A DNA stretch of 47,201 nucleotides from an uncultured Verrucomicrobiales bacterium. GTDB taxonomy: Bacteria; Verrucomicrobiota; Verrucomicrobiia; Limisphaerales; JAYPXF01. How positions within the stretch are numbered: the first letter of the stretch is position 1; every line of letters begins with the position of its first letter. The stretch is from NCBI GenBank assembly GCA_937893495.1, contig CALBIE010000591.1, positions 1 to 47,201 on the forward strand, written 5' to 3'. Of this stretch, positions 15,357 through 37,294 are shown in pieces. A program made the position numbers and the translations under genes. The notes beneath the pieces were generated by a model, which saw only the letters and a list, made by a program, of their open reading frames with translations, did no database searches and was not told the origin of the DNA.

Positions 15357-17664
15357 GACGAGACTTTCGGAGCGCAGGTTTATCGGCCTCCTCGGGGTGT
15401 TGTTGTTGCTGACCTTTTATCCGGTCCTGCTTGGCGGGCAGGCGTTGTTTTATCGTGACTACGGATTCCTGGGTTACCCGTTTGCGCACTTTCACCGCGA
15501 GATGTTCTGGAGCGGGGAAATTCCGTTTTGGAATTCCCTGATTCACTGTGGTGTGCCGTTTTTCGCGCAGTGGAACACGATGGTGTTTTATCCGGGGTCC
15601 TTGATCTATCTCATCTTTCCGCTGCCGGTTTCGCTGGCGTGGTTTTGCGTATTGCACATCTTCCTTGGCGGCGTCGGGATGCGGCGACTGGCGCTGTGCT
15701 GGACGGGTTCGGATTTTGGGGCGGCGGTCGCGGGTGTCTCTTTTGCAGTCGGTGGTATGATGCTTGGATCGGTGATCTACCCGAACTATCTCGTCGCATT
15801 TGGGTGGCTGCCATGGGTGTTCCTGTTTGCGGAAAAGGCGTGGACGCATGGCGGGCGAAACCTCGCGCTGGCGGCGCTGGCTGGTAGTATGCAAATGCTC
15901 AGCGGCGCGCCGGAATTGATCCTGATGACCTGGATGCTTCTGGGTGTTGTTGGCGTCAGCCGAATTGCTTTTGATGCCACCGCTCCTGAAGCCCTGCCGC
16001 GCCGGTTTGTCTTTGTGGTTCTACTCATTGCCGGAATCTGTGCGTTTCAACTGCTCCCGTTTTTTGAACTGCTGCATCACTCCCAGCGGGACGCCGGTTC
16101 CGCATCTGGATTCTGGGCTTTGCCCGCGTGGGGATGGGTGAACTTTTTTGTGCCGCTCTATTCGCATTTCAAGACTGAACAGGGCGTTTATGTTCAAGCC
16201 GGACAATCGTTTTTGCCGACGTATTACCTCGGCATCGTTCCGCTGTGGCTCGCGGTGGTTGCCATCTGGCAGCAACGCAATTGGCGCACGGTGGCACTGG
16301 CGTTTGCGGGATTTGGCGCGCTGTTGATCGCGATGGGCGAGCAGTCGCCGGTTTACGGAATGCTGAAGTCCGTGTTTCCCGTCGGCTTTGCCCGGTTCCC
16401 GGTCAAGGCGGTTTTGATCATTGGATTCATCGGTCCCGCGCTCGCGGCCCATGCGATCGCCTGTTGGGAGAAACATCCTGCCACCGGCAGTGAATCGATT
16501 CTTCGGCGATTGGCTCAAAGCGCGGGCGTGATGGCGTTGGTCATTGCGGGCATCGGCGGTTTCTCACGCATGAAGCCGCTCTTTCCGAATCCGGACGACC
16601 TGACGGTTTCGAACGGAATGGTTCGACTGGTTTTCCTTGTGGCCGCGATGGCTGCGCTGGTCTGCTGGCGAAGGCTGTCCGACGCTTTGCGGCGCGTCGT
16701 GCCGATGGGGTTTCTCGTCCTGATCTGGCTGGACGTGATGACTCACACGCCGGTGTTGAATCCCACCATTGACGCGGGAGCGTTTCAGTCGAATCTCGCG
16801 CGCGCCTATCAGCAACAGCAGGGTGTTGAGTTTCCCGAATTGAAGAACGGGCGGGTGATGCTCCGTCCCGAAGCTGAACTGGCGCTCCACACGCGGATGG
16901 TGCCGAAGTTTTTTGACGATTTCATCGGTCAGCGACTGGCGATGTGGGGCAATCTCAATCTGCTCGACAATGTCGCCAAGGTGAACGGCGCCGCCACACT
17001 TCGACCCGCTTGGTGGAACTCCATTGAGAGTGCACTCTACACGAGCACCAATCTCGCCCACACCAACCTCATTCGCTTTCTCGGGGTAACCCATGTGACC
17101 CGGACCGGGGAATTGATGCAATGGCAGGCGCTCTCCACCAGCATGCATCGGGTCACCGCCGGGCAAACCCTTAAGTCTGTGCCGCGCGGTGCCCCGTCTA
17201 TCTGGGAGAGCCCGCTTTGGAATCCACGCACCGAAGCCTTCACCGGCGACGTGGTTGATGCGGAATTGACGAATTTGCCGGCGGTCAGCGCATCCGTTTC
17301 AGAAATTGTCCATGGGAATGGGCGCCTGCAATTTGTCGTGGACGCACCGTCCGCGACGATTGCCGTGATTTCTGAAACATTTTATCCGGGCTGGAAGGCG
17401 ATCGTGAATGGCGATTCGGCCCGGGTGATTCCCATGAACCACGCTTTCATGGCCGTGCCGGTGAATGCCGGGAAAAGTGTCGTGCAATTGAACTATTCGG
17501 AGCCGCGTTTTGGAATCGGAATCGGGATTACATTTTTGTCGTTGGTAGTCTGTGGCTGGCTCTGGCGGCGGCCCGACGAAGAGGACGTTGAACCCGGCCT
17601 GGATTATGTCGAAAGCGGATCGCTGACCGCCCACCTGATGGGCATGACGGGTGGCGAGATTTAA
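15322..17664 (+). CDS. YfhO-family membrane protein, copy 4
   Basis: The 780-residue copy has the first-loop motif FYRDYGFLGYP, then GEIPFWNS, FAQWNTMVFYPGS, a dozen membrane helices and the C-terminal domain with IAVISETFYPGWKA and MNHAFMAVPVNAGK. The track start at 15322 overlaps copy 3 by 35 bp. ATG 15349, in frame nine codons on, would overlap by only 8 bp and resembles the other junctions. No ribosome site decides between them. The C-terminus extends about 35 residues past the final helix (EEDVEPGLDYVESG...). It is the last gene of the operon and is followed by a repeat element. Confidence 0.85.
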   Translation: MEMSSQTNPMTETRLSERRFIGLLGVLLLLTFYPVLLGGQALFYRDYGFLGYPFAHFHREMFWSGEIPFWNSLIHCGVPFFAQWNTMVFYPGSLIYLIFPLPVSLAWFCVLHIFLGGVGMRRLALCWTGSDFGAAVAGVSFAVGGMMLGSVIYPNYLVAFGWLPWVFLFAEKAWTHGGRNLALAALAGSMQMLSGAPELILMTWMLLGVVGVSRIAFDATAPEALPRRFVFVVLLIAGICAFQLLPFFELLHHSQRDAGSASGFWALPAWGWVNFFVPLYSHFKTEQGVYVQAGQSFLPTYYLGIVPLWLAVVAIWQQRNWRTVALAFAGFGALLIAMGEQSPVYGMLKSVFPVGFARFPVKAVLIIGFIGPALAAHAIACWEKHPATGSESILRRLAQSAGVMALVIAGIGGFSRMKPLFPNPDDLTVSNGMVRLVFLVAAMAALVCWRRLSDALRRVVPMGFLVLIWLDVMTHTPVLNPTIDAGAFQSNLARAYQQQQGVEFPELKNGRVMLRPEAELALHTRMVPKFFDDFIGQRLAMWGNLNLLDNVAKVNGAATLRPAWWNSIESALYTSTNLAHTNLIRFLGVTHVTRTGELMQWQALSTSMHRVTAGQTLKSVPRGAPSIWESPLWNPRTEAFTGDVVDAELTNLPAVSASVSEIVHGNGRLQFVVDAPSATIAVISETFYPGWKAIVNGDSARVIPMNHAFMAVPVNAGKSVVQLNYSEPRFGIGIGITFLSLVVCGWLWRRPDEEDVEPGLDYVESGSLTAHLMGMTGGEI

Positions 17665-21635: not shown

Positions 21636-23321
21636 ATGAGGAGGATTCAGCGGCGACTCAAATGGATAGGACTGGTGGCGGCCATTTGTCTGGTGGGTTT
21701 CACAGCGCGGTCGCAGGTGGGATCGGGTGTGACGCAGGGGGGGATTCCAATCACGACCCAGATACGCGTGGGTCCCAGCTATCGCATCTGGAATGCCGAC
21801 AACTCGATTCGCACGCAGCCTCAGGGCGATCCGCTCGGTGGTGCCGGCACTACTGATTCCAGCCTCGTCAAGGACGCTGATGCGGTGCAGGACAAAATTT
21901 TCCGCACATTGAGCGAAGGCTGGTTGCGCACTCCGAAGATTGGTGGGACACAAGGGTCGCTCCATACCACGGCTCCTCTGTTCAAAAACGCGAATTTTTC
22001 CCTGCTTACGTGGGAAGACAAGCCGGAGGACGCCGAATTGAAGATCGGTCGCTTGTATCTGGATTTGCTGGCGATTTCCGGGACTGTACTTTACAGCGAT
22101 AATGTTTTTCAGGTGGAGAAGGGTACCGATGGGGAAGCCTTTGCCATCATGACTCTACGAGGAGCGATTATTTTTCAGTTTTCGGAGACGATGCGTCTGG
22201 CCGCGGGGGGCGCGTTCGGGTGGCTGCCATTTACCAATGAGATCGGCTTTCAGGACCCGGTGGCGGCGTACTCGGCTGACGTGGCACCGGCCTTCACCAC
22301 ACGATTCAACTACGATATTCCGTTCGGCAAGAACTCGACATTGTTTATTTTTGACAGCTTCGACATTGCTTCCTCGGGCATTGGTGGGGGAGAGACGTTT
22401 GATCTGCTTAACCGCGATGTGTCCGATCTTGAAGATACCGAGGGGAACCACGGGTTCCGTTTTTTTCAGTCAACAGACCGGCAGCGCCGGACGACCAAAC
22501 AGAATTTCACTTACTTCAATACGGTTGGCGTCTCGTTCACCTCGCTGCTGCCAACCGTCACAAGACTGACGACCGGATACACCCACAATAATGTCTGGTT
22601 TGACGATGCCGTGGACGGCCAACCCTCGTCCTTCGATACGATTGGGATCAACTTCGCCTCCGAACGTGAGAATATGCGTTTCAAGCCCTCGCTTGGTTAC
22701 ACGGCGACCCATATCAACAACAAGTTTGGATTCGATCAGTCATTGTCTATCGGTGTTCGTGGACCGATTACTGATAGAATGGAATTCCTCGGTCGCTGGG
22801 GACTGACCTGGTTTGGCGATCGAAATGACAAATCGTTGCTGTGGTCATTCGGGATTGCGCATCAACCCCGTGAAAGCACGCGCTACCAGTTGACGTGGGA
22901 TCGCACGACGGCATTCCCGGCGGCGGAATTTGCGACCTCGATTCGATTTCAGATTCAACAGATTTTGAGCCCGGTTCTGACCGTTGATGCGGTGTATGCG
23001 CAAACGGATTTTGAACCTCTCGACAATCCGAACACTTTTTTTGGCTCCAAGCTGGATGTCGCCGCGGGTAACCTGAATATCGTGCTGGGTGACCGGGTTA
23101 CCTGTCAGATGGGTTACGCGTGGACTCACGACATTCAACGTGGCCCGGCGCCGCGCCCGGCGATCGACACCCATACCGTAAAGATGGACCTGGTAGTGCG
23201 CCATACGACTATTACCGATTCGCGGATTGGGTATCGGTTCAATCGGCGTGAGTCCAATCGCCTGCTCGACAGTTTTGACGAGAACGTCGTCTTTTACACG
23301 CTCACTCGGCAGTTCCCCTGA
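21636..23321 (+). CDS. Outer-membrane beta-barrel protein of the EPS locus
   Basis: The 561-residue product has a signal peptide (MRRIQRRLKWIGLVAAICLVGFTARSQ), a short periplasmic lead and then alternating amphipathic beta-strands ending in an aromatic residue near the C-terminus (VVFYTLTRQFP). Examples are FSLLTWEDKPE, YSDNVFQVEKG and LTWDRTTAFP. This is the profile of an outer-membrane barrel with perhaps 16-18 strands. The gene starts the export block barrel-OPX-Wzc. It therefore probably forms the outer-membrane pore for the polysaccharide, as proposed for Wzp-type barrels of Myxococcus that pair with OPX proteins lacking their own membrane helix. A stand-alone porin is the main alternative. 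AAGGA with 8-nt spacing supports ATG 21636. Confidence 0.75.
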   Translation: MRRIQRRLKWIGLVAAICLVGFTARSQVGSGVTQGGIPITTQIRVGPSYRIWNADNSIRTQPQGDPLGGAGTTDSSLVKDADAVQDKIFRTLSEGWLRTPKIGGTQGSLHTTAPLFKNANFSLLTWEDKPEDAELKIGRLYLDLLAISGTVLYSDNVFQVEKGTDGEAFAIMTLRGAIIFQFSETMRLAAGGAFGWLPFTNEIGFQDPVAAYSADVAPAFTTRFNYDIPFGKNSTLFIFDSFDIASSGIGGGETFDLLNRDVSDLEDTEGNHGFRFFQSTDRQRRTTKQNFTYFNTVGVSFTSLLPTVTRLTTGYTHNNVWFDDAVDGQPSSFDTIGINFASERENMRFKPSLGYTATHINNKFGFDQSLSIGVRGPITDRMEFLGRWGLTWFGDRNDKSLLWSFGIAHQPRESTRYQLTWDRTTAFPAAEFATSIRFQIQQILSPVLTVDAVYAQTDFEPLDNPNTFFGSKLDVAAGNLNIVLGDRVTCQMGYAWTHDIQRGPAPRPAIDTHTVKMDLVVRHTTITDSRIGYRFNRRESNRLLDSFDENVVFYTLTRQFP

Positions 23322-23569
23322 TGCATGGAACCTTTTGGGCCTATTGTCAAAGTGGTGTCGGTCTTGACCAATGCAAGGCTTGTTCAGCAGGCTGAGAATC
23401 AGGTCCTGTCGAGTGACGCTTGTTGCCATTCGAATATCGGCCGCGTCCGGGTGGCCGGGCGTACAAATCGCCTTCTACTGTGAAAGTCGGCGGTAAATGG
23501 GCGCGGATCTGATTGATTATCAGATGGTTCGGAAAAAAATGTTTTTGCCTAATGCACAGGATCTGTGGC
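23322..23569 (+). promoter_or_regulatory. Leader of the OPX/SLBB gene
   Basis: This 248-bp gap holds the CGGCC...GGCCG hairpin (23438-23457), with the 12-mer CGGGTGGCCGGG (23448-23459) shared with the leader of the barrel gene. Next come an AT-rich stretch (GGAAAAAAATGTTTTTGCC) and AGGA placed 8 nt before ATG 23570. No coding sequence is supported. Confidence 0.25.
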
Positions 23570-25804
23570 ATGAACAAGCGTCCGGACCGGGTCATCCTGT
23601 CTCCGGGCGGCTCGTTTGATTACAATTCAGTGAAACACTGGGAAAAATCGTTGAACTTGTTTTTCGCCATCGCCGTGATGTTTGCGGCGATGTTTTTTTG
23701 TTGCACTGTCCGCGCAGACAGTGCCGCAGAGGCTCAGCTTGAAATCCTGACTCAGCGAAAATCGAGCTTGGAATCCGAAATGGAAACCACGCAAAGAGAG
23801 TTTAATCGGGCCCAGAAGCAGTATACCGACGCCCTGAAACAGGGAAATTCCACGGAGATTTCGCGCGCCAACGATGAGTGGACATCGTGGTATAACAAGC
23901 AGGTCGAAATTCAGGCCCAGATTAAATCAGTCGAGCGCCAGAGTGCCGATTTGCTGGGTAGCGGCAGGTTGCCTGCGCCTCCGGTGAACACTCCCGTAAC
24001 ACCGTCCATGGCGTTCGGGACAGATCAGGGGAGATATACCAGCACGAGCGAGCCGATTGGCGGTCGCACCCCTCCAGCAGTGATTCAACTACAAGCGGCT
24101 CAGGCCGAGTTGGCCGGACTGGAGGAATTCCGCTCCGCCGAGAGCATGATTGGGCGATATGGCGGTTCGTCTCTGGACAACTTGGGCAAGGCCGAAATGT
24201 CCTCCATCAAGCGCGAAATGACGCAGGCTGCCAGCGGAACTCTTCCATCGGGGGGCGCATTTACTTCCACTCCCAGTTCTGGTTTTTCGGCGAACCCGAA
24301 GGGGGTGACGGCAACGACGACCGCTTCCCCGCCGACGATTTCCGCGCCCATCGGTGTTTCTGCACCGGTGACGGTTTCCACCTCCGCGACGGTAATCGCT
24401 TCACCCTCCACGCCCCCAACTCCCGTGTATTCTTCCCGTCTGGAGGCCGAGACGGCCGCCGCCAAAAAATTTGAACCCGAGCCAACCGGCAGAGAGACGG
24501 GTTCGTCGGTGATTTCCTCTTCATTTCCGGGCGCGGCACCGATGGCCATGAATGTTGCCAGCCTCCCGCCGGAATTTGCCACCTCAGCTTCGACAACGGG
24601 GCCGCGATTACCTTCGGACACAGGCGGGCTCGGGTATACCGATTCGAAACGCGCTCCACCAATGACGGGCACTCAGAAAATGGACCTGGAGCGGTTGACT
24701 AACCGCAAGGAAATCCTGTTGAGCCAGTATGAAGAATCGCAACGGAAGTTTCAGTACAATACGCGCCAGATGCATGCGGCCGCTCGCGCAGGCTCGACCA
24801 CAGAATTGGCCAAGCTGGAAGAGGACGTCAGGAAGTATGGTGGGGAATATCAGTCGTTGTTGAGGGAGATTGCGGTCATCGATGGGAAAATAAACGAACT
24901 GTTGGAAGAAACCGGGCAACTGCCCGGTCGCCAGCAAGCTGTCGGGCCATACTCGGATGCTGACATAGTTGAAGACGACGGAAGCATTCGGCCCGGTGAT
25001 GGTTTGCAATTGATCGTCACGGAAGATCCGGACTTTAACGGCATTCATCAGGTCAAGGTCGGAGGGTACATCATGTTGCCGCGAATCGGGCGGGTATTTG
25101 TACGTGGGAAGCAGCCCATGGAAGCCGAGCAAATTATCAAGGATGTGCTGGAAAAGACCCAGTTACGGGTTGCGACCGTGACTGTGGAAAGAATTTCTAT
25201 GGCTCCGCGGCGGTCGCCAGACGGGATTGGTATCGATAGAGTCGGGCCGCCGCCTCCGGAACCAAAACTGATTATCTACCTCGCCGGCGAATTCATTACG
25301 CCCGGCCCGTTGGTCATTCCGGTTGGCTTCAAGCCCACGTTGATGACGACCATCATTCGTTCGGGCGGTATCACCCCTTCGGGCGATTTGACGCGCGTCA
25401 AGCTGTTGCGAATTGTCGAAGGACGCGGTGCAGTCGAGGAAATAAACGTCAGCGGAATCCTCTCGGGCCAGATTCCGCCCGCGGATATTGAATTGCAGGC
25501 CGGGGACATCATCGTGATTCCACCGTTCGCGCCGATTGTCTATGTCACTGGCAACGTGCTGAAACCGGGCACGCTGAGACTATTTCAGGACGAGACGCTT
25601 ACGGCCTACGCGGCGATTTTACGAGCGGGCGGATTCGCCCGGTTTGCCAATCTGAAGAAAGTGTATGTCGTGCGTGACCTTGGTAATGGTGAAAAGGTGA
25701 GAATGCCGGTCAATATTCGGGAAGTTCAACATGGGACGATGCCCGACGTCATGCTTCAGGGCAAAGATATCGTCGTTGTGCCGGAACGTTTTTTCAGTTT
25801 CTAG
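23570..25804 (+). CDS. Polysaccharide export protein (OPX, Poly_export + SLBB) with coiled-coil repeats
   Basis: ATG 23570 (AGGA, 8-nt spacing) gives 744 residues and a signal segment (LNLFFAIAVMFAAMFFCCTVRADS). No classical lipobox is present. A coiled coil at about 47-115 (LTQRKSSLESEMETTQREF) and a second at about 373-450 (LTNRKEILLSQYEESQRKF) are similar to each other and flank a Pro/Ser/Thr-rich spacer. Next comes the Poly_export domain (SIRPGDGLQLIV ... GGYIMLPRIGRVFVRGK), then two SLBB-type beta-grasp domains (IYLAGEFITPGPLVIPVG, VYVTGNVLKPGTLRLFQD). The protein stops at PERFFSF, without the C-terminal amphipathic helix with which Wza crosses the outer membrane. It probably works as the periplasmic channel between the Wzc-like protein and the barrel. 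Confidence 0.9.
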   Translation: MNKRPDRVILSPGGSFDYNSVKHWEKSLNLFFAIAVMFAAMFFCCTVRADSAAEAQLEILTQRKSSLESEMETTQREFNRAQKQYTDALKQGNSTEISRANDEWTSWYNKQVEIQAQIKSVERQSADLLGSGRLPAPPVNTPVTPSMAFGTDQGRYTSTSEPIGGRTPPAVIQLQAAQAELAGLEEFRSAESMIGRYGGSSLDNLGKAEMSSIKREMTQAASGTLPSGGAFTSTPSSGFSANPKGVTATTTASPPTISAPIGVSAPVTVSTSATVIASPSTPPTPVYSSRLEAETAAAKKFEPEPTGRETGSSVISSSFPGAAPMAMNVASLPPEFATSASTTGPRLPSDTGGLGYTDSKRAPPMTGTQKMDLERLTNRKEILLSQYEESQRKFQYNTRQMHAAARAGSTTELAKLEEDVRKYGGEYQSLLREIAVIDGKINELLEETGQLPGRQQAVGPYSDADIVEDDGSIRPGDGLQLIVTEDPDFNGIHQVKVGGYIMLPRIGRVFVRGKQPMEAEQIIKDVLEKTQLRVATVTVERISMAPRRSPDGIGIDRVGPPPPEPKLIIYLAGEFITPGPLVIPVGFKPTLMTTIIRSGGITPSGDLTRVKLLRIVEGRGAVEEINVSGILSGQIPPADIELQAGDIIVIPPFAPIVYVTGNVLKPGTLRLFQDETLTAYAAILRAGGFARFANLKKVYVVRDLGNGEKVRMPVNIREVQHGTMPDVMLQGKDIVVVPERFFSF

Positions 25805-25911: not shown

Positions 25912-28152
25912 ATGATGCCGGGTTCGAAAAAGCGAAAGATAGATTTTACCGATGTCGTGTTTTACGTCGCAATCGCGACGAAACATGCTCGGTTGATGGT
26001 GTTGTTGATGGCCATGTCTCTGACCGCCGGGCTGGTTTACTACATTTATGCCCGACCGCTCTATCGCGCCACGGCACTGGTCCATTATCAGGAGTTTAAG
26101 CAGCAAATCGATCGGGATGATGTCGAAAAGAAGCGGTTTGCACCCTTCATGGTCCTGGACGAGTTGACTGCCTCCCACATCGTCGGGCGGGTGATGGTGC
26201 GACTCGGCTACGTTGAAACGCCCGGTGTGACGGAGAAGCCGATGATTAAGAAAATCTCCGCATCCTTTGATTCGGAGAAAAACATTCTCGTTGACCTGTT
26301 TACGTTTAAAGCCGAATGGGCTAGACCCTTTTGCGAGCTGCTGGTCGCGGAGTTCAAGGCGGACCGCGAGCAGAAGACGGAGCAGACGCGTGCTTTGTGG
26401 GAGCGAAAAATCAAGGCGGAATTGGATCGATTGGAGATTGAAATCCAGAAACAGCACTACCTCGACTACCAGTTGAGCACCAATTTCAATCCGCAGCAGT
26501 TGACGATCGAGGTGGATCAACTAAGGAGCGTCCCCCGCGAATTGGCGGAAGTGTCCCAGAAACTGGCACTGGTCGAGCGAATCCAAAGCAAACTGGCGAC
26601 CACCAGGGACTTGACGGTGATGGAAAAGCTGACTCTGTATTCCTCAGTGGACGCCGGTTTGCGTCCCGGGCAATTGGTACCCGCGACGCCGGGCCAGGGA
26701 GCGCGTGAACTCAACAACAATGACAACGGTGCCGGGATTCGGTCGGACGACGGTAACTTCATTTCACGAGGTTCCCCTCCGGCGAATCGCTCGAACGGCT
26801 CGCGTATTGTGCCCCTGGGTCAAAGACAGATCAACGAATCGCTCTGGGAAAACCTCGTGCGGCAGCGTCTGCAACTGGAGAAACAGGTCGCCGACGCCAG
26901 TCGGATTTATCTTCCCAGGCACCCGAAAATGATCACCCTGCAACGGGCGATGGATGCCGTTGACCGGCAGTTGCAGGACGAACTACTGACTGCGGCGGCG
27001 CGTTTTGACCTGAACGTGAATTATCTTCTGAGCCGGAAAAATCAGTTGAATTCGTTGCTGCCGACGTTCTCGGAGAAATACAAGAGGCTCGAACGATATG
27101 AGAACGAAAAGCGATTACTGAAAGGATCGCAGCCCGACTGGGAAGGTGCCTATAAGCGCGCCAACATGCGCCTGGAGGAGATGCGCCTCGCTCTCGACAA
27201 CGAGCGGGTGAATCTTCAGTACGTTACCAATAAGCGAGTGCGCGATAAAATTCCCGTGTCCCCCAGCCGAGTGAAGCTGGTGCTTCTTTCATTTCTGCTT
27301 GGTCTCGCCCTGGCGGTCGGTGTTCCGTTCCTGCTCGAATTCATGGACCAGACGGTGACCAACATGGACAAACTTGAGGAAGAGACGGGAATGCGCGGAC
27401 TGGGAATTGTGCCGGACTTTGAGGAAACGCTCGCGGAATCCTATCCGCTGCTTGGGTCTGAGACGATGACTGATCCGGATATGCTGGAGAACTTCAGGGT
27501 CATTCGCACCAACTTGATATCCAGTGCGGCGACTTCAAAATATCCGCAAGTCATTCTGGTCACGAGCACGGGGCCCAAAGAGGGCAAGACAGTTGTCGCG
27601 TCGAATCTGGCAATCTCCTTCGCGCAGATGGGTGAAAAGACCCTTGTCATTGATTGCAACCTCCGGCGTGGCCTGATGCATCATCTCTTCAGCAGCCGAT
27701 CCAGCCCGGGATTGAGCAACGCGCTTGTTGAGAAGCTGGAAGTCGCGGATGCAATTCGGCCCACGGCGACGGAAAATCTTTCCTTGCTCCCCTGCGGCGA
27801 ACATCTGGAGGGAGACATCGAAATGCTCGGCTCCACGCGCATGCAGCAAATCATCGAAGAGTTGCGCGGCAAGTTTCAGCGAATCGTCATCGATGCTCCG
27901 CCAGTGTTGGGACTTTCCGAAACTTCCGTGCTGCAAGCCAATGTGGACGGCTCGATTATGGTCATTTGGAGCGCATTTACCTCGACGCGACAAATTCGGA
28001 TTGCCATGGAGATGCTGAAGGACAATCACGCTAATTTCTACGGCTTCGTACTGAATCGATTGGACCTGGCGGCGACGATGAATCGGTTCCATTACTACTA
28101 CTACTCCAATCACTACTACAATCGTTACCAGTCAATGACGCGGACCAGCTAG
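25912..28152 (+). CDS. Wzz/Wzc-like chain-length regulator and tyrosine autokinase
   Basis: The 746 residues start with an N-terminal membrane helix (LMVLLMAMSLTAGLVYYIYA) and a Wzz domain. A long coiled-coil region follows, then a second helix near 455-475 (LVLLSFLLGLALAVGVPFLL). A BY-kinase domain comes last. Walker A is TGPKEGKT (Lys559), Walker A' is VIDCNLRRG (Asp581, Asn583) and Walker B is RIVIDAPP (Asp661). The C-terminus is a Tyr cluster (HYYYYSNHYYNRYQ), the usual autophosphorylation site. It would set chain length and drive assembly of the export complex at the inner membrane. The second Walker A' Asp of Wzc/CapB-type kinases is Asn here, so activity may be reduced. The gene follows the OPX gene by 107 bp. 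Confidence 0.9.
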   Translation: MMPGSKKRKIDFTDVVFYVAIATKHARLMVLLMAMSLTAGLVYYIYARPLYRATALVHYQEFKQQIDRDDVEKKRFAPFMVLDELTASHIVGRVMVRLGYVETPGVTEKPMIKKISASFDSEKNILVDLFTFKAEWARPFCELLVAEFKADREQKTEQTRALWERKIKAELDRLEIEIQKQHYLDYQLSTNFNPQQLTIEVDQLRSVPRELAEVSQKLALVERIQSKLATTRDLTVMEKLTLYSSVDAGLRPGQLVPATPGQGARELNNNDNGAGIRSDDGNFISRGSPPANRSNGSRIVPLGQRQINESLWENLVRQRLQLEKQVADASRIYLPRHPKMITLQRAMDAVDRQLQDELLTAAARFDLNVNYLLSRKNQLNSLLPTFSEKYKRLERYENEKRLLKGSQPDWEGAYKRANMRLEEMRLALDNERVNLQYVTNKRVRDKIPVSPSRVKLVLLSFLLGLALAVGVPFLLEFMDQTVTNMDKLEEETGMRGLGIVPDFEETLAESYPLLGSETMTDPDMLENFRVIRTNLISSAATSKYPQVILVTSTGPKEGKTVVASNLAISFAQMGEKTLVIDCNLRRGLMHHLFSSRSSPGLSNALVEKLEVADAIRPTATENLSLLPCGEHLEGDIEMLGSTRMQQIIEELRGKFQRIVIDAPPVLGLSETSVLQANVDGSIMVIWSAFTSTRQIRIAMEMLKDNHANFYGFVLNRLDLAATMNRFHYYYYSNHYYNRYQSMTRTS

Positions 28153-28231: not shown

Positions 28232-29194
28232 ATGGACGAAACGAAGGGCATGAAAGATGAGGAACTCCCAGGTGTTTCAGTCGTCATTCCGGCCTACAAC
28301 TACGCCCGTTTTCTTCCCTTTGCCGTTGAGTCCGCCCGGAGTCAGGATTATCCGAAGTTCGAGGTCGTGGTGATCGATGACGGTTCCAAAGACAACACGG
28401 CGGAGGTGATGAAGCAGTTCTCCTCACCGGTTCGCTACGTCTATCAGGACAACGTTGGCTTGTCTGCGGCGCGCAATAGCGGAATCCGGGAGGCGAAATA
28501 CGATTTCGTGGCTTTTCTAGATGCCGATGATGAGTTTCGCCCTGGTTTGCTGCGGGAGGGCATGTCGCGGTTTGCGGAATTGGTTGATGAATATGGGTTG
28601 GTTGCCTGCGCTGGTGAGCAGATTGATGTGGACGGAAAACCGCTTTACACCCGGAAACACGTTCCCGAAACGCCTCGCGAAGTTCGGGTTGAGGAGATTG
28701 TGATGCGGACCCGGTTCATGCCGACCGGTGTCATTTGCCGGAAACATGTCTTTGATAGCTGCGGCGGGTTTGACACGCAATTGAAGAGTACGGAGGATCG
28801 GGACATGTGGATTCGGATTGCCGCGCGGCACCGGGTCTTTCACCAGGGCAAGGTGCTGGCCAATATCCGGAAACACGGCGACAACATGAGCAACAACGCG
28901 GATCAGCAGCAGCGCAACATGTCGATCGTGTTAAAGAAATCGTGGCGCAATGGTGTTGTTCCGCGCGTCCGATTCTGGTTCTGGCTGCAGGTCTTTTCGT
29001 ATCGGCGATATCAGGCAGCCCTCATCTACAACGGCATCAAGCGCCCATGGCCGGCTTTCCGCGACCTGCTCGTCAGCATTCTTTACTGGCCTGTGTTTTT
29101 CAATCCCGCCTCCACGGGTGATCGTTTTATGTTCCGCTGTCGCCAGTTGGTTCGCTTTACCCTGAACGCCTTGCGGGGCGAAGTGAAACGCTGA
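28232..29194 (+). CDS. Family 2 glycosyltransferase
   Basis: The 320-residue soluble enzyme has the GT-A fold signature VSVVIPAYNYARFL, VVVIDDGSKDNT and the metal-binding FLDADDEF. Next come a region with TRFMPTGVICRKHVFDSCGGFD and STEDRDMWIRIA, the usual acceptor side ED motif. It would add one sugar to the growing lipid-linked repeat unit on the cytoplasmic face. The donor cannot be read from the sequence. An in-frame ATG at 28250 could be the true start. It lies 79 bp after the Wzc-like gene. Confidence 0.9.
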   Translation: MDETKGMKDEELPGVSVVIPAYNYARFLPFAVESARSQDYPKFEVVVIDDGSKDNTAEVMKQFSSPVRYVYQDNVGLSAARNSGIREAKYDFVAFLDADDEFRPGLLREGMSRFAELVDEYGLVACAGEQIDVDGKPLYTRKHVPETPREVRVEEIVMRTRFMPTGVICRKHVFDSCGGFDTQLKSTEDRDMWIRIAARHRVFHQGKVLANIRKHGDNMSNNADQQQRNMSIVLKKSWRNGVVPRVRFWFWLQVFSYRRYQAALIYNGIKRPWPAFRDLLVSILYWPVFFNPASTGDRFMFRCRQLVRFTLNALRGEVKR

Positions 29195-29218
29195 CGCAAT
29201 TTCATTGATCGATCGGCC

Positions 29219-30343
29219 ATGCGCAAAGCCAGACGTCTCCGCGTCCTGCACGTGAATCTTTCCCTCGAACCCGGAGGGATGGAGAACGGGATTGTCAACG
29301 TCGCCAATCGATTGCCGGAGGATGAGTTCGAGCTGTTTTTTTGCTGCCTTGAAACAGGCGGCGCATTTGTCGAGCGATTGAATCACCCCGAGAATGTTTT
29401 TGCCTTCAGTAAGGCGCCGGGATTTTCGCTGAGCACGGTCTGGAATGTGATGAAGACTGTGGCGAGGACATCACCGGATGTAGTGCATCCGCACAACCTC
29501 GCCCCCTTGACTTACGCCACGCTTGGTACGTTTCTGGGATTTTGGAAACCCTTACTACAGGGGGAGCACGGGGTATTTCAGGGCGAGCAGGGTTCGGCCC
29601 GACGATTGCTCCAACGGCGGCGGCTGTATCATTGCTGTCGGAAAGTCCACACGGTTTCCGAAGGGTTGCGACAATACCTGATTGCTCAGGGCTTTCCGGG
29701 GAACAAGATCGTCTCCGTTGTCAATGGTGTGGATACCGCCCGGTTTGTTCCGGCTGACCGCGTGGCGATCCGCCGCCAAATCAATCTCCCGCCCGAGGCA
29801 ACCGTTTTGGGAATCGTGGGACGATTTGATCCGAACAAAAAGCACCTGCTTCTGCTGGAGGCATTTCACCGGATAGCGGAGGGGCATCCTTCCGTCCATT
29901 TTTTGATCCTGGGCGACAACGGCAGCGAACGGGAGAACATTCTGGCCGCTGTGGAGGCCAGTCCGTGCCGATCCCGCATTCATTTGGCGGGATTTCAGGC
30001 CGATCCATTGCCCTGGTATCAGGCCATGGATCTACTGGTAATGCCCTCGCCGTTCGAGGGTCTGTCCAACGCGGTGCTCGAGGCGATGGCCTGCGCAGTG
30101 CCTGTGCTGGGGAACGTGGCTTGTGGCAATGCCGAAGTGATCGAGCATGGCGTCGATGGCGTGCTTGCAGGACTGGATTCGGTTGATACCCTTGCCGTTG
30201 AAATTGCTCGATTGCTCGATGCCCCAAAAAAGGTGCGGCAACTGGCCGAAGCAGCTCGTCGAAAGATGGTTGAACGGTTTTCCATCAACGCCATGGTGGA
30301 TCGCTATGCGGCGCTCTACCGGGAAGTGGCCGGCTGGGGTTGA
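29219..30343 (+). CDS. Family 4 glycosyltransferase
   Basis: The 374-residue GT-B enzyme starts RVLHVNLSLEPGGMENG, a typical N-terminal nucleotide-fold loop. The C-terminal domain carries VLGIVGRFDPNKKHLLLLEAF, HLAGFQADPLPWYQAMDLLVMPSPFEG and the donor-binding EX7E stretch EGLSNAVLEAMACAVPVLG. These mark a retaining GT4 enzyme acting on nucleotide sugars. The gene lies 24 bp after the GT2 gene and before the polymerase, so it probably builds the EPS repeat unit. Confidence 0.92.
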   Translation: MRKARRLRVLHVNLSLEPGGMENGIVNVANRLPEDEFELFFCCLETGGAFVERLNHPENVFAFSKAPGFSLSTVWNVMKTVARTSPDVVHPHNLAPLTYATLGTFLGFWKPLLQGEHGVFQGEQGSARRLLQRRRLYHCCRKVHTVSEGLRQYLIAQGFPGNKIVSVVNGVDTARFVPADRVAIRRQINLPPEATVLGIVGRFDPNKKHLLLLEAFHRIAEGHPSVHFLILGDNGSERENILAAVEASPCRSRIHLAGFQADPLPWYQAMDLLVMPSPFEGLSNAVLEAMACAVPVLGNVACGNAEVIEHGVDGVLAGLDSVDTLAVEIARLLDAPKKVRQLAEAARRKMVERFSINAMVDRYAALYREVAGWG

Positions 30344-30404
30344 TCCCGGCCCGTTAATTCGGAATTTGAATTTGAGCCGGGAAATCAGATAGAGTGTCTC
30401 TGTC

Positions 30405-31952
30405 ATGGATTTTGTATCCATCGCGCTATTTACGATTCTGCTTTACGTGCGCCCGCAGGAAATCTTCGGATTCCTCGAGGCGTTGCGGCCCGCATTTGTT
30501 GTCATGGCCATGGGGTTTGTGGCGCTCCTGGTAAGGCCCGGCGGGTTGAATCCAAAGACGATTCTGCGCACGCCGCACGACTGGTTGATGGCGGCTTACT
30601 TTCTCTGGATTATCTTCACCAACGAAGCGGAGTACGAGACCTGGAAAAAGATTTATCCGTTCGTCGGCTTCTACTTTATCTCGGTGCAGGCGCTGACCAG
30701 CGTGGAGAGGATTTACCAACTGCTCTACGTCCTGTTGGGTTGCATCATGTTCATCGCCATCATGGCCCTGGCGCAACTGATCGGCATTGATCCCGTCGGC
30801 TCAGCGGGCGTGACGGAGGGCTCTAACGGCCGACTGGTTTTCAATACGGGCCTGTTTAACAACGCCAATGCGCTCGGGCATAGCGTCATTGTGGCGATTC
30901 CTTTGACCTACTTCCTGATGGTCTGGAAACGTGAGATCTTCGTCAAGGAAGTCGCCATCCCGATGTTCGGAATTGCACTGTGGTGCGTATATCTGACGGA
31001 ATCCAAGGGCTCCTTTATCTCGGGGTTTGGTGCCGTGCTCGCGACGTTGACGTTTGGGCGTCCCAAGTGGATTCAGGCGATTATTCTCACGCTGGCGCTG
31101 ACAGTTGGATGGGGCGCGATGGCTGCCCTTCCGCGATTCGGCGAGCTGCAAGCCAGCAAGGCCAGTAAGGACGAGGCGATTCAAGGCCGCGTCCGGGCGT
31201 TTGTATTTGGAAGGTGGGCTACGGACACCTTGCAATACGGTGTGGGATACGGAAATTTCGTCGATGCCATGGCTCGCAAGGAAGGCGAAGAGGCAGCCAT
31301 CGCCTCGCACTCGTCCTACAACCAGATCAGCGCCGAGCTGGGCAAAGGTGGTTTGTTCCTTTTCGTCGGCCTGATGTACGTGGCAATGCGGACCTTGGTT
31401 CAGGCGAAGACAGCCAATGTTCAGGAGGAACGGATTCGACGCGCCATGTTTTGTCTGGTGTTGGGGTATGGTGTGTCGTCGTGGATGATCGACTTCGGGT
31501 TTCGCGCGCTGTTTTTTCTTATGATCGCCATGGTCGGGGCGTTTCATCGAATGCTTCAGACGCGTACCGGTGTGGTCGGGGCTGAGCAGGACCTGGAGCA
31601 GGCTTTACAGCGTGAGAGCAATCCCCTCCACGGAATGGCTGCTGCCGGTGCAACGGGCGCGCAGACCTATATGGCGCAAATGAAACAGATTCGCGGTGCC
31701 GCCCGTCGGGGGATGGGGACGGCGATGTCCGCTGTCGCGCCCATTGCCCCATTGTCCGGGTCAGCCACGATTCAGGCCTCTAATGCTTACGCCCCTGCTG
31801 CGATTGAACCCGGAATTGCGTTGCCGACGGGAGCGTCCAGTTTCATGCCCTGGGCCCGGTTGGGTTGGCTTGATTTTGTCCTCATGTATGCCTTGCTGCG
31901 TTTGGCCCTGTATATCCGCGTTTACGCCATTGAAGACCTATTTGCGGGGTAG
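30405..31952 (+). CDS. O-antigen ligase / Wzy-like polymerase
   Basis: The 515-residue protein has about 11-12 hydrophobic segments and a large loop with the hallmarks of the Wzy_C family: NTGLFNNANALGHSVIV, then GRVRAFVFGRW ... GVGYGNFVD ... HSSYNQISAELGKGGLFLFV. The His and the Arg pairs in these loops are the residues thought to handle undecaprenyl-linked glycans. In this setting polymerisation of repeat units is likelier than ligation to lipid A. The last 120 residues are an unusual Ala/Gly/Pro-rich segment before a final hydrophobic stretch (LGWLDFVLMYALLRLALYI). A weak TTGAAT-N18-TAGAGT upstream could be a promoter. Confidence 0.85.
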   Translation: MDFVSIALFTILLYVRPQEIFGFLEALRPAFVVMAMGFVALLVRPGGLNPKTILRTPHDWLMAAYFLWIIFTNEAEYETWKKIYPFVGFYFISVQALTSVERIYQLLYVLLGCIMFIAIMALAQLIGIDPVGSAGVTEGSNGRLVFNTGLFNNANALGHSVIVAIPLTYFLMVWKREIFVKEVAIPMFGIALWCVYLTESKGSFISGFGAVLATLTFGRPKWIQAIILTLALTVGWGAMAALPRFGELQASKASKDEAIQGRVRAFVFGRWATDTLQYGVGYGNFVDAMARKEGEEAAIASHSSYNQISAELGKGGLFLFVGLMYVAMRTLVQAKTANVQEERIRRAMFCLVLGYGVSSWMIDFGFRALFFLMIAMVGAFHRMLQTRTGVVGAEQDLEQALQRESNPLHGMAAAGATGAQTYMAQMKQIRGAARRGMGTAMSAVAPIAPLSGSATIQASNAYAPAAIEPGIALPTGASSFMPWARLGWLDFVLMYALLRLALYIRVYAIEDLFAG

Positions 31953-31975
31953 TGGTGTTTACTACCCGTCATTGA

Positions 31976-33115
31976 ATGGAACTCAATCAACCTTGCCATT
32001 GGTTCTTCTGGGGTAGTTTCGTGGCGCTTGGTTATACCTTTGTCGGGTACCCGATCGTGATTGGCACTTTGGCGCGGCTTTTCCCTCGTCCAATTAACAA
32101 ATCAAAGCCGGTAGTCTGGCCGCACGTGTCGGTGGTCATTGTTGCCTATAATGAAGCTGCCCGAATTCGTGATCGGATTGAGAATCTTTTTGCTGCGGAC
32201 TATCCGGAGGAACGGCTGCGGGTCATCGTCGTGACCGACGGCTCCGATGACGGCACGTCGCAGTTGTTGAAAGACCTGAAACATCCCCGTCTTGACCTGA
32301 TTGAGCGAGCAGCGCGCAGTGGTAAGTCGGCCTGTGTCAACGCGGGAATCGCCCATGCAGACAGCGAGTTGGTGGTATTGTGCGATGCCCGACAGCGATT
32401 CGAGTCAGAGACAATTCGGGAACTGGTGCAAAATTTTTCAGATGATCGCGTTGGCGCTGTCAGTGGCGAGTTGTTGATCGAAGGCGCTTCCACGAGCATC
32501 GGCGGTGGGGTGGATCTCTACTGGCGACTGGAAAAGTTCATTCGCGCCGCTGAATCACGCTTTCGATCCGTCATCGGGGTTACGGGTGCGGTTTACGCGA
32601 TTCGGAGGGAACTCTTTGTGCCGATTCCGGAGGATACTTTGCTGGATGACGTGGTGATTCCGATGCAGATTGTTCTACGGGGTTATCGTGTAGGATTTGA
32701 CGCGGACGCCCGGGCGTATGATCCACAGATGACTGATCCCGCGCGGGAGAAACGACGCAAGCTCCGCACGCTGGCCGGCAATTACCAGATGTTTTTCCGC
32801 TACCCGGGATGGATGATGCCGTGGCGAACCGCATTGTGGTGGCAGTTGATCTCGCATAAATACTCGCGAATCCTGGCACCATTCCTTATGATCATACAGC
32901 TCGTGTCCAATGTCATACTGCATGAACAGCCGGGATATCGGCAGTTGCTGATTGCGCACGCCGGGTTTTACCTTCTGGCCCTGCTCGGGACTCTGATGTC
33001 GGGTTTCAAAGTGCGCCTGATCTCCGTGCCGGCGGGTTTTGTATTTCTGAACATGATGGTGATGGGCGGCTTTTGGAATTTCCTGCGCGGGAGTTACCGG
33101 CAGGGAAAATGGTAG
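31976..33115 (+). CDS. Membrane-associated family 2 glycosyltransferase
   Basis: The 379-residue protein has an N-terminal helix (FWGSFVALGYTFVGYPIVIG), a GT2 catalytic domain and two or three C-terminal helices. Motifs are VSVVIVAYNEAARI, VVTDGSDDGT, a DxD-like CDARQRF, and LLDDVVIPMQIVLRGYRV in the acceptor/base position. QxxRW is replaced by a basic KRRKLRTLAGNYQ stretch. This layout resembles processive-type synthases, but the altered QxxRW argues for a single-step enzyme. It starts 23 bp after the polymerase gene. Confidence 0.88.
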   Translation: MELNQPCHWFFWGSFVALGYTFVGYPIVIGTLARLFPRPINKSKPVVWPHVSVVIVAYNEAARIRDRIENLFAADYPEERLRVIVVTDGSDDGTSQLLKDLKHPRLDLIERAARSGKSACVNAGIAHADSELVVLCDARQRFESETIRELVQNFSDDRVGAVSGELLIEGASTSIGGGVDLYWRLEKFIRAAESRFRSVIGVTGAVYAIRRELFVPIPEDTLLDDVVIPMQIVLRGYRVGFDADARAYDPQMTDPAREKRRKLRTLAGNYQMFFRYPGWMMPWRTALWWQLISHKYSRILAPFLMIIQLVSNVILHEQPGYRQLLIAHAGFYLLALLGTLMSGFKVRLISVPAGFVFLNMMVMGGFWNFLRGSYRQGKW

Positions 33116-33127
33116 GACGTGTGGCGT

Positions 33128-33889
33128 ATGCTCAGCTTTGCTTTTCATTCTTCCCGGCTGGCCGGCTGGCCGGTCTGGCATCGATGGTTGGCACCTCGGG
33201 CGCGGCCTGCCGATGCGTTCGGCTTCGCGATGTACTACCATTGCCGAAGCACTCGCCGCGTGCCGGGCTTTGTCCGTAAAGTCAAACACACCAAGCTGAT
33301 TGACCTGACTCGCTCCGAGGATGAGATATTTGGTGACTTCAACAAGAACGCGAAGCAGAAGCTAAAACGCGCGGTGGCGGACAGCCTGCGTTTTACGACC
33401 GACAACACCCTGGAGGAACTGCGCGAAGTCTATAACGCGTTTGCCGGGGCGAAAGGACTGCCATTGGTGGAAGACCGGGTGCTGGAGGCCTACTGGCCGA
33501 AGCTGGTGGTCACAAAGCTGTCGTCAGACAATCAGACGCTGATCATGCACAGTTACATGTTGGACGAAGCCGCGAAATATGCCTGTCAAATTCAAGCCGC
33601 ATCCATGTTCCGTGTGCTGGACATCCCGGATGCCAACGCCTTTTTCGGCCGTGCCAACCGGTATTTGCATTATCTGGATATGCTGCTTTTGAAGGAGCGG
33701 GGTTATCAGACGTTTGATATTGGCGGTGTCGCGGTGGACACGGAGGACCCGGTGCTGAAGGAAGTGAATGCCTTCAAGGACAGTTTTGGCGGCGAATTGG
33801 TGGAAATGAGCACCTATCTTTCTCTGCCGCTGTGGCTCGGACGCAAACTGTCCGATTGGTTCGGGCGCGAGAAAAAACCCCGGGACTAG
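33128..33889 (+). CDS. FemAB/GNAT-like transferase of the EPS locus
   Basis: The product of about 253 residues contains the FemAB-like core FGDFNKNAKQKLKRAVADSLRF followed by EELREVYNAFAGAKGLP. Later come AKYACQIQAASMFRVL, ANRYLHYLDMLLLKERGYQTFDIGGV and a conserved C-terminal FKDSFGGELVEM. FemAB relatives transfer aminoacyl or acyl groups. A FemAB member is a standard part of exosortase-associated EPS clusters. Here it may modify an amino sugar of the polymer. GTG 33119 (track start) has AGGA only 1 nt away. ATG 33128 has it at 10 nt and is preferred. Substrate unknown. Confidence 0.7.
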   Translation: MLSFAFHSSRLAGWPVWHRWLAPRARPADAFGFAMYYHCRSTRRVPGFVRKVKHTKLIDLTRSEDEIFGDFNKNAKQKLKRAVADSLRFTTDNTLEELREVYNAFAGAKGLPLVEDRVLEAYWPKLVVTKLSSDNQTLIMHSYMLDEAAKYACQIQAASMFRVLDIPDANAFFGRANRYLHYLDMLLLKERGYQTFDIGGVAVDTEDPVLKEVNAFKDSFGGELVEMSTYLSLPLWLGRKLSDWFGREKKPRD

Positions 33890-34061
33890 CTTGGGCTTCG
33901 GGCCCCCGTTCCTGCCGCCGAACTGTTCTTGTGCGTCTGGTCCGGTCGAAATAACATTTTTATCCGCAGTTGGCCCGCGACCGACGAATCCAAAGTATTG
34001 CGGAGAATTGGAACGGCACCATCAGTTGTCGGGCAGAGACTGCATTATCAACAACGGTCAA

Positions 34062-35003
34062 ATGTACAGACTCAAGATCATGCTTGCACGCCTGGCGCAG
34101 TTCATTGCGCATTATTCCGGTGTGTCCACGCGCCGTGCGGGCGCGGGCAGTGGTGGTCGAATTCTGATGTACCATGGCGTCGGTGTAGCGGACTGTCGAG
34201 CGGATGTTTTCGAAAGCCAGATTCGTTTTCTCACGGAACATTTTCAGATTGTGTCGCTCAGCGACATGGTCACGGGTGTGCAAAAGCAGCCGGAGGAACT
34301 GGATGGCAAGATCGCGCTGACCTTCGACGATGGCTTGCGCAACAATTTTACGGTGGCGTATCCGGTGCTCAAAAAGTACCGTGCTCCGGCGACTTTTTTC
34401 ATATGTCCCGGCCTGATCGACAGGGGCGCCTGGCTCTGGAACGTGGAAGCGCGTTGTCGGATGAAGAGTTTGGCTGCCGGCGAACTTTCTCGCCTCGCTG
34501 ATGGGCTGGGTCGTTTCGGTGCCTCGCCGAACCAAGTGGTGGATTGGATGAAAACGCTGCCGTTCGAATCGCGGCGGCATGTGGAGGAAGTCATTCGGCG
34601 GGAGACTCGAACATTTACGCCCGGCGAGCGACTCAGGAGCGAGAATGATCTGATGAGCTGGGACGAAGTCCGACAACTGGATCCGGCATTGATCAGTATC
34701 GGTGCCCACACCACCAATCATCCGATTCTCAAACATTGTACGCCGGAGGAGTTGACGGCCGAAGTGAGCGAATGCGGTCAACGAATCGAGGATCATATTC
34801 ATCGGCCGGTCGAGCATTTCTGTTACCCGAACGGGGATTTCAACGAGACCGTCGTGCGTTATACCGAGAAGAACTACCGTGCGGCCGTCACGACGCAGCC
34901 GGGTTATGTCCGCGGAGGCGCGTCGGTTCATCAATTGCCTCGCATTGGTTCGACCCACAATCTTACCTATCTTTCCTGGCGACTGCACCGGCCGTTTTCC
35001 TGA
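34062..35003 (+). CDS. Polysaccharide deacetylase (NodB-like, CE4)
   Basis: ATG 34062 gives 313 residues. The track start at 33891 adds 57 residues of no recognisable content. The NodB motifs are present: GRILMYHGV, IALTFDDGLRNNF (catalytic base Asp and metal Asp), ATFFICPGLIDRG, SIGAHTTNHPIL (metal His pair) and FCYPNGDFNE. No signal peptide is clear, though the first 20 residues (MLARLAQFIAHYSGV) are mildly hydrophobic. The enzyme would remove acetyl groups from N-acetylated sugars of the polymer or an intermediate. It precedes a conserved NodB-like gene by 3 bp, so the two act as a pair. Confidence 0.9.
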   Translation: MYRLKIMLARLAQFIAHYSGVSTRRAGAGSGGRILMYHGVGVADCRADVFESQIRFLTEHFQIVSLSDMVTGVQKQPEELDGKIALTFDDGLRNNFTVAYPVLKKYRAPATFFICPGLIDRGAWLWNVEARCRMKSLAAGELSRLADGLGRFGASPNQVVDWMKTLPFESRRHVEEVIRRETRTFTPGERLRSENDLMSWDEVRQLDPALISIGAHTTNHPILKHCTPEELTAEVSECGQRIEDHIHRPVEHFCYPNGDFNETVVRYTEKNYRAAVTTQPGYVRGGASVHQLPRIGSTHNLTYLSWRLHRPFS

Positions 35004-35006
35004 GGC

Positions 35007-36131
35007 ATGATCGATTACCTGAAGACCGCCCGATACTGGCTTCCCACTTATCTTCGGCAGCCGGTCGATCCACTTCCCTCCGGGATGAAGGACGTGATGG
35101 TTTGCGTCTGCGATCACTTCGAACCTCTGCACGGCGCGAACAAACCTGAAGCGCGCGCGCGCCTGGTTCGGTGGAAGAAGAAGTTTCCTGAGAATATCGC
35201 TCCTTTCAAAGATGCCGATGGGATTCATCCCCGACACACGCTGTTCTACCCGGTGGAGCAGTACGATTCTGACCTGCTTTGCGAAATTGAGGAACTGGTG
35301 GCTGCGAGCGGCGCCGAGGTTGAGTTGCATCTGCATCACGATAACGAAAACAGTGAACGATTCCGTCGCCATATCGTGGAGGGGATTGAAAACTTTCGAA
35401 AGCACGGCTTTCTCTCTTCTGATCGATCAGGGAAAACCCGTTACGGATTCGTGCATGGCGATTGGGCTTTGGACAACTCGCATCCGCTGGGGATCAATTG
35501 CGGCGTCGATGACGAAATCCGGTTGCTGCGGGAAACGGGTTGTTATGCCGATTTCACGCTTCCTTCCGCGCCGGATGCCGCTCAGACGAGCACTATCAAT
35601 CGCATCTATTACGCCATGGACAGCCTTCGTTCCAAATCACACGACACGGGTGTGGCGGCGCGGGTTATGTCCGATGAACCCGAACCGCGGGCGATTGACA
35701 CGCCCCGATTCGGAGACCTGTTGCTCGTGCAGGGCCCCCTCGGATTGAATTGGGAGTGTCGCAAGTTCGGGTTTCTTCCGCGCGTTGATAATGCGGACCT
35801 GACGAAAGTGAATCCGCCGACTGAGTCTCGGTTGCGGCTCTGGTTGCGATTGCACATTCACGTCGTGGGGCGTCCGGAGTGGACATTCATCAAACTGCAT
35901 TGTCACGGTGCCCCGCCGCCCAACTCGGAGGTTTTTCTGGGCGACCCTTATCGTCAATTTCACGAACACCTGGCCGCGGAATTGACCGGGGCAAAAAACT
36001 GGCGGCTCCATTATGTGACGGCCCGCGAGCTGGTTAACATCGTGCATGCGGCCGAGGATGGTCACTCGGGAAATGCCGGCGAGTTTCGTGATTATCGTTA
36101 CCGGCTGAATAACTCGAAGGGCGAGGCGTGA
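35007..36131 (+). CDS. Conserved EPS-locus protein with divergent NodB-like motifs
   Basis: The 374-residue protein has no family I can name. It shows an acid/His pattern comparable with, but not equal to, CE4 deacetylases: MVCVCDHFEP, EVELHLHHDNEN, RYGFVHGDWALDNSHP, CYADFTLPSAP, and HIHVVGRPEWTFIKLHCHG near the end. These five regions could form a metal site. The gene begins 3 bp after the deacetylase stop and overlaps the next GT4 start by 4 bp (GTGA). This tight coupling suggests a shared pathway step. A polysaccharide hydrolase or second deacetylase is the best guess. No signal peptide is seen. Confidence 0.7.
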   Translation: MIDYLKTARYWLPTYLRQPVDPLPSGMKDVMVCVCDHFEPLHGANKPEARARLVRWKKKFPENIAPFKDADGIHPRHTLFYPVEQYDSDLLCEIEELVAASGAEVELHLHHDNENSERFRRHIVEGIENFRKHGFLSSDRSGKTRYGFVHGDWALDNSHPLGINCGVDDEIRLLRETGCYADFTLPSAPDAAQTSTINRIYYAMDSLRSKSHDTGVAARVMSDEPEPRAIDTPRFGDLLLVQGPLGLNWECRKFGFLPRVDNADLTKVNPPTESRLRLWLRLHIHVVGRPEWTFIKLHCHGAPPPNSEVFLGDPYRQFHEHLAAELTGAKNWRLHYVTARELVNIVHAAEDGHSGNAGEFRDYRYRLNNSKGEA

Positions 36132-37294
36132 AAATTCTCTTCGTATCCAATCTGTTTCCCGATTCCGACCATCCGGTCTGGGGACAAATCAACGCGACCT
36201 TGCTCCATCATCTGGCGAAGCGTTGCGAGGTACGGGTGCTGGCGTTGCGTTCAACCTTGCCGATGCTGGGCTTTAAGGTCCGGCGATTAAAGCCGCGAGC
36301 GGAGGATGAATTATTGAAACCCGCCTACGCGCCGGTCTGGTACCTCCCGAAAGTTGGCAGCCGCTTCAATCACCGACTAATTGGAGCCGGCGCATTGCCA
36401 GTCCTTAGACGTCTGCGCAAGGAGTTTAATTACGATGTGATTCTCTGTTCCTGGCTGTACCCGGATGTGTGTGGCCTTGCGCGCGTGTTGCCACGATTGG
36501 GTGTCCCGATGGTGGCTATCTCGCAGGGGACGGACGTCCATGTCTATCTGGATATTCCAGTGCGGCGAAAACTCATTGTGGATACGGTTTCCCGATTGCC
36601 CGGCACGATTACGCGCAGCAAAGATCTGGCGAAACGGCTGGTGGATGCTGGCGTGCCGGAAAGCCGATTGCATCCGATTTACAATGGCGTGGATCAGGAA
36701 GTGTTTCAGCCAGGCGATCGTGCGGCGGCCCGACGGGAATTAAAAATTCCAGCGGATGACAAGGTCATTCTCTATGTTGGCAATTTTCTGCCCATCAAAA
36801 ATCCATTGCTTCTGGTAAGGGCGCTCTCGGAGGTAAAGGCGGATTCGCGAACCGCCAATTGTCGGTTGATCATGATTGGCGCCGGGCCTCTGCTGGAAAC
36901 CGCGAAGGCCGAGGCTGCGGCCATGGAGACGTCAGAACAAATCGATTTTGTTGGCCGCAAATCATCTGGCGAAGTAGCACGCTATATGCAGGCGGCAAAT
37001 GTGCTTTGTATTCCGAGCAACAACGAAGGCGTGCCCAATGTCGCCTTTGAAGCGATGGCGTGCGGATTGCCGATTGTCGGAACGAAGGTGGGCGGCATTC
37101 CAGAGGTGGTATGCGAAGATTTTCTGGGTCGCCTCGTAGGCAAAGGGGATCAGGGTGCGCTGACTGTGGCGTTGAAGGATTTGTTGACCGAACCGGCTGA
37201 TTCCCGGCGGATTACCGACTACGCAAGACAGTTCTCTTGGGAAAAGACCGTTGACGCCTATCTCGAGGTTCTGCAACGGGCGGTATCGAGTTAG
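36128..37294 (+). CDS. Family 4 glycosyltransferase
   Basis: The 388-residue GT-B enzyme starts at GTG 36128, overlapping the previous stop. Features are MKILFVSNLFPDSDHPVWGQ, VVAISQGTDVHVY-like substrate-side loop (VPMVAISQGTDVHVY), PIYNGVDQEVFQPGD, ILYVGNFLPIKNPLLLV and the EX7E donor motif NNEGVPNVAFEAMACGLPIV followed by GGIPEVV. It is the last gene of the EPS locus. No membrane segment is seen. Confidence 0.92.
   Translation: MKILFVSNLFPDSDHPVWGQINATLLHHLAKRCEVRVLALRSTLPMLGFKVRRLKPRAEDELLKPAYAPVWYLPKVGSRFNHRLIGAGALPVLRRLRKEFNYDVILCSWLYPDVCGLARVLPRLGVPMVAISQGTDVHVYLDIPVRRKLIVDTVSRLPGTITRSKDLAKRLVDAGVPESRLHPIYNGVDQEVFQPGDRAAARRELKIPADDKVILYVGNFLPIKNPLLLVRALSEVKADSRTANCRLIMIGAGPLLETAKAEAAAMETSEQIDFVGRKSSGEVARYMQAANVLCIPSNNEGVPNVAFEAMACGLPIVGTKVGGIPEVVCEDFLGRLVGKGDQGALTVALKDLLTEPADSRRITDYARQFSWEKTVDAYLEVLQRAVSS

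Follow-up and report, generated by a model that had tools for sequence, protein, structure and literature searches.

A barrel gene paired with a hairpin-bearing OPX gene in an uncultured Verrucomicrobiales bacterium: a probable composite polysaccharide translocon

Described export systems and the locus

The composite OPX/β-barrel translocon, in D1D2 and D1D2D2 versions and with a wide spread, was published in 2022 (PMC9601211; PMC9603273 as Wzp/class 3 OPX). In Myxococcus xanthus, adjacent genes encode EpsX and EpsY (WzpX/WzaX), the former an outer-membrane barrel and the latter an OPX protein that lacks a membrane-spanning helix; the pathway also includes a co-polymerase (PMC9601211, PMC9603273). 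Direct interaction and mutual stabilisation have been reported for this pair (PMC9601211), and class 3 OPX proteins are described with Wzp (PMC9603273). The literature searched contained no solved structure of a barrel and an OPX protein assembled together.

The DNA stretch analysed here, referred to as the window, comprises 47,201 nucleotides (contig C591 of a metagenome-type assembly) from an uncultured Verrucomicrobiales bacterium and contains a barrel gene and an OPX gene arranged as in EpsX/EpsY and accompanied by a co-polymerase and glycosyltransferases (Table 1). A composite translocon is recognised by an OPX protein that combines D1 (PES/Poly_export) with one or two SLBB domains and lacks a C-terminal membrane helix, and by a barrel gene no more than five genes away. 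The window OPX protein has exactly this make-up, and the two genes are adjacent. At 763 aa (~410 aa in other relatives) it exceeds the empirical 280 aa cut-off that the authors applied to short OPX proteins; this limit served their survey and is not a mechanistic feature. The window protein also carries N-terminal hairpins and has no lipobox, whereas the myxobacterial OPX partners are nearly all predicted lipoproteins.

The locus resembles the XrtA/PEP-CTERM exopolysaccharide genes in having distant relatives of the TIGR03016 barrel, the TIGR03027 OPX protein and the TIGR03018 kinase. Unlike in those systems, all three scores lie under the curated cut-offs, and the only exosortase gene of the genome is found on a different contig from the cluster, for which reason an exosortase link of the pair was rejected. 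With Wza-Wzc of E. coli the locus shares D1 and SLBB-type ring domains as well as a tyrosine-kinase co-polymerase (PMC12881504), but in contrast to Wza, a class 1 OPX protein, the window protein has neither the C-terminal helix barrel nor a lipobox, and a separate barrel protein is present instead. A long helical segment has also been added to α-proteobacterial OPX proteins, where it is central and follows the N-terminal α/β part, whereas the window hairpin precedes D1 (PMC2850547). Finally, prmC and prmD of freshwater Sphingomonas, which belongs to a different phylum, are consecutive barrel and SLBB-type OPX genes followed by a co-polymerase and a kinase, and both are required: without either gene the polymer is lost (PMC11340318).

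The first-pass annotation had suggested that the pair could represent, in this lineage, a secretion architecture of its own. This has to be given up, as the same architecture was already published as a widespread third translocon type. What is new is an OPX protein that bears additional helical hairpins and lacks a lipid anchor. No description of an OPX/barrel pair with such an OPX protein was found in the open-licence literature, and an earlier one may exist elsewhere.

Table 1. Features of the barrel-OPX locus and the genes that follow it (positions in the window).
Feature	Position	Strand	Details and evidence
Outer-membrane β-barrel gene, Wzp/EpsX-like partner	21636..23321	+	561 aa; ORF, AlphaFold barrel, fold matches, weak TIGR03016
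Pre-barrel segment, residues ~64-132	21825..22031	+	consensus GG.GT...FR.L..G...PK.G; low model confidence
β-barrel domain, residues 135-560	22038..23315	+	AlphaFold model
OPX gene	23513..25804	+	763 aa from TTG 23513; later starts ATG 23552 / ATG 23570 possible
Helical hairpin 1, residues 69-149	23717..23959	+	model; duplicate of hairpin 2
Ser/Ala/Thr/Pro/Gly-rich linker, residues 150-380 (~230 residues)	23960..24652	+	composition and model
Helical hairpin 2, residues 386-466, adjoining D1	24668..24910	+	model, orthologue alignments
Poly_export domain (D1), residues 489-561	24977..25195	+	profile match (residues 489-559) and AlphaFold model
SLBB domain 1 (D2), residues ~586-669	25268..25519	+	profile match and model
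SLBB domain 2, residues ~675-756, plus conserved FFSF tail closing the protein	25535..25801	+	profile, alignment, model
Wzc-like polysaccharide co-polymerase with fused tyrosine autokinase	25912..28152	+	profiles; conserved third gene
Remaining polysaccharide cluster	28232..37294	+	GT2, GT4, Wzy/O-ligase-like, GT2, ORF 33119-33889, deacetylase, ORF 35007-36131, GT4

The barrel protein, the OPX core and the surrounding cluster

The barrel protein has a signal-like helix at its N-terminus and a C-terminal Phe that is conserved in the homologue alignment. AlphaFold predicts an antiparallel fold of ~20 strands (compared to 18 in EpsX) in a medium-confidence model with a mean pLDDT of 64, which rises to ~85 across residues 290-560 and is lower upstream. 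The fold matches listed from the PDB are outer-membrane barrels, including AlgE, all with low TM-scores; among PDB sequences there was no meaningful match. The TIGR03016 profile matches only the C-terminal part with 21.8 bits and does not reach the curated cut-off of 90.85 bits, but weak matches to the same profile are seen in 16 of 20 barrel family members. Judged by these profile scores, the protein is a distant relative of TIGR03016, an outer-membrane protein of the PEP-CTERM system. The segment preceding the barrel is a candidate for periplasmic contacts.

Profile searches of the OPX protein identified a Poly_export domain followed by two SLBB_2 stretches, the second of which reaches residue 756, and gave no match to membrane-fusion-protein families. 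The last structural element of the AlphaFold model is the strand 753-756, a few residues before the C-terminus (...VVVPERFFSF-stop), and no Wza-type C-terminal helix is present in the model. The signal peptide (...AMFFCCTVRA, followed by DS) contains no lipobox. The first-pass annotation had therefore been right that the protein ends directly after its second SLBB domain and that both a classical lipobox and a Wza-type helix are absent, the former according to a pattern scan. The D1-D2-D2 core of ~270 aa is the most conserved part of the protein in the homologue alignment. The OPX protein matches, by fold as well as by sequence, Wza and the class 3 protein WzaB of M. xanthus, for which a crystal structure is found in the PDB (9n9a).

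The same annotation had proposed that the preceding gene encodes an outer-membrane barrel, which agrees with the predicted model and its fold matches, and that this barrel is the pore and the OPX protein the periplasmic channel. This is still the best reading, based on the neighbouring genes, the D1-D2-D2 protein without a membrane domain and the EpsX/EpsY precedent, and we consider it very probable that the pair is a composite OPX/β-barrel translocon through which a polysaccharide is secreted. The barrel might instead act in surface attachment or processing, as does Wzi, a capsule-cluster barrel with 18 strands that is dispensable for export (discussed in PMC9601211), while the OPX ring exports through another outer-membrane partner. 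The window barrel matches no Pfam family, which leaves room for such a role, but we regard it as very unlikely: the OPX protein has no membrane domain of its own, no second outer-membrane candidate was found among the cluster genes, and a barrel gene directly adjoins most of the short OPX genes elsewhere in the order.

Upstream of the cluster, the window contains four tandem paralogues of a YfhO-type membrane protein (8000-17664, +), which are mutually 31-55% identical over BLAST segments.

Conservation of the barrel-OPX pairing

Close OPX orthologues (E about 1e-80 or better) were present in 11 of the 58 genomes surveyed from the order, and 10 of these 11 also have a barrel homologue, while no barrel matches were seen in the genomes of the set that have no close OPX orthologue. 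The two genes are neighbours in nine of the 11 genomes, counting G001, whose barrel frame is a fragment of just 192 aa. In G051 they share a contig but lie ~18 kb apart, and in G025 (83% complete) the OPX gene is present and the barrel was not found.

Scanning named genomes with the barrel sequence gave 20 loci, at least six of which come from genomes already in the 58-genome set. An OPX gene lies downstream of the barrel in all of them and is the next gene in 18, with two inserted genes in L070 and L071. The named barrel homologues belong mostly to Verrucomicrobiota. Four records under the names Akkermansia muciniphila, Klebsiella pneumoniae or Proteobacteria (L066, L069, L070, L072) also contain clear copies of the cluster; probably these titles are wrong or the bins are contaminated.

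The barrel is upstream of the OPX gene in each of 15 additional loci from the phylum (the L117 barrel being judged by inspection only), several with an intervening gene. Short OPX genes of the order, which encode different proteins, have an adjacent barrel in roughly 25 of 32 cases (counted by eye in 1.5 kb flanks). The gene order barrel-OPX-co-polymerase is conserved across the homologous loci. The pairing thus recurs in tens of loci and is beyond chance. Strict co-occurrence, as expected in the first-pass annotation, is too strong a description given G025 and G051, although the association itself is strong. OPX genes commonly standing without a barrel, which would have spoken against the proposal, were not what we saw in the homologous loci surveyed.

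Loci from one family of the class have a conserved gene, for a protein of ~280-340 aa, between the barrel and the lipobox-type or short OPX gene (L105:10472-11323, L106:8118-9149, L109:8592-9440), and its product is possibly a third component. The genome of the window itself has a second, short OPX gene with its own adjacent barrel gene on contig C451 (L059:24-2132, -). A pairing special to the lineage was rejected, because barrels accompany most short OPX genes across the order and the phylum, and this genome contains a second pair.

The two genes could also be neighbours simply through operon order in a polysaccharide cluster, without their products touching. In a distance-matrix (mirror-tree) comparison of the barrel, OPX, co-polymerase and GT2 genes, the barrel distances correlate as well with GT2 (r=0.94) as with OPX (r=0.90), so that no barrel-OPX signal stands out above other cluster genes, which favours this explanation. 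However, in other families the cases seen show the same pairing for short OPX genes and different barrels, and EpsX and EpsY are reported to interact directly (PMC9601211). We find an explanation by operon order alone very unlikely indeed.

Helical hairpins and the predicted export path

The N-terminal half of the OPX protein, which consists of two hairpins and a disordered linker, was overlooked in the first-pass annotation. The hairpins are homologous to each other, with an alignment score of 89 compared to a maximum of 67 in 2000 class-preserving shuffles. The linker between them is mostly of low confidence in the AlphaFold model, except for a helix at residues 188-210. Relatives near the window have OPX proteins of 564-826 aa, while others have ~410 aa and a single hairpin. 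No lipobox was found within a signal peptide when the hairpin-bearing orthologues were scanned for the pattern, and the sole match (L052/L078) sits in an N-terminus that is probably too long. In a different family of the class, short OPX proteins (L105, L106, L108, L110) have a lipobox and no hairpin. Hairpin and lipobox therefore appear to be mutually exclusive in this small sample, as far as a simple pattern scan can tell.

Cassettes of hairpin and D1 are also found in giant proteins. A 1745-aa frame on contig C79 of the same genome (L056:7832-13066, -) contains a cassette 67% identical to the window OPX protein, and the two close homologues examined have no cassette at that place. A 1648-aa protein of G051 with VWA and YfbK_C domains (L057:4413-9356, +) contains one that is 71% identical to the OPX protein of G051. 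In the tree, each cassette groups as sister with the OPX protein encoded in the same genome (97/96 and 100/100), which points to two separate captures. Pfam detects no SLBB domain in either protein, and one possibility is that these two unrelated giant proteins join the export ring via the cassette. A further frame of 1037 aa on contig C260 of the window genome (L058:57-3167) has a Poly_export domain and no Pfam SLBB match.

It may be that the hairpins have no role in export and represent a tolerated, lineage-specific coiled-coil, for instance a spacer or a peptidoglycan contact, in a translocon that works exactly as EpsX/EpsY does. The great length variation of the first hairpin and linker among relatives would fit this, as would the better conservation of D1-D2-D2, but the ~80-residue hairpin directly before D1 is retained across close orthologues and has been copied along with D1 into two giant proteins. 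We consider the absence of an export role somewhat unlikely. A far-reaching role, in which the hairpin has replaced the lipid anchor in this verrucomicrobial branch, forms an additional periplasmic sleeve or brace between co-polymerase and ring, and as a module with D1 lets giant proteins join or cap the ring, is speculative and in our view unlikely.

For the composite translocon that we favour, the OPX ring, its docking and the path of the polymer are taken from the EpsX/EpsY precedent. The OPX protein would form a ring (an octamer in the precedent), with its final SLBB layer and FFSF tail below the rim of the barrel on the periplasmic side, while D1 would face the helical arms of the co-polymerase, and the polymer would pass from the co-polymerase through the ring and into the barrel. 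As the E. coli complex shows contact between the D1 domain of Wza and the Wzc helical arm (PMC12881504), a hairpin located just before D1 would be well placed to extend or brace this contact. More tentatively, it may lengthen the ring toward the inner membrane or brace it from the outside, and might help to keep a ring without a lipid anchor in place.

How a polysaccharide crosses the outer membrane with an OPX protein that does not span it was answered only in 2022, for Myxococcus. A conserved pair with the FFSF tail, the pre-barrel segment and the D1-proximal hairpin as contact candidates allows docking to be tested in a second phylum, and the hairpin-bearing proteins suggest that neither lipid anchoring nor short length is required in such pairs.
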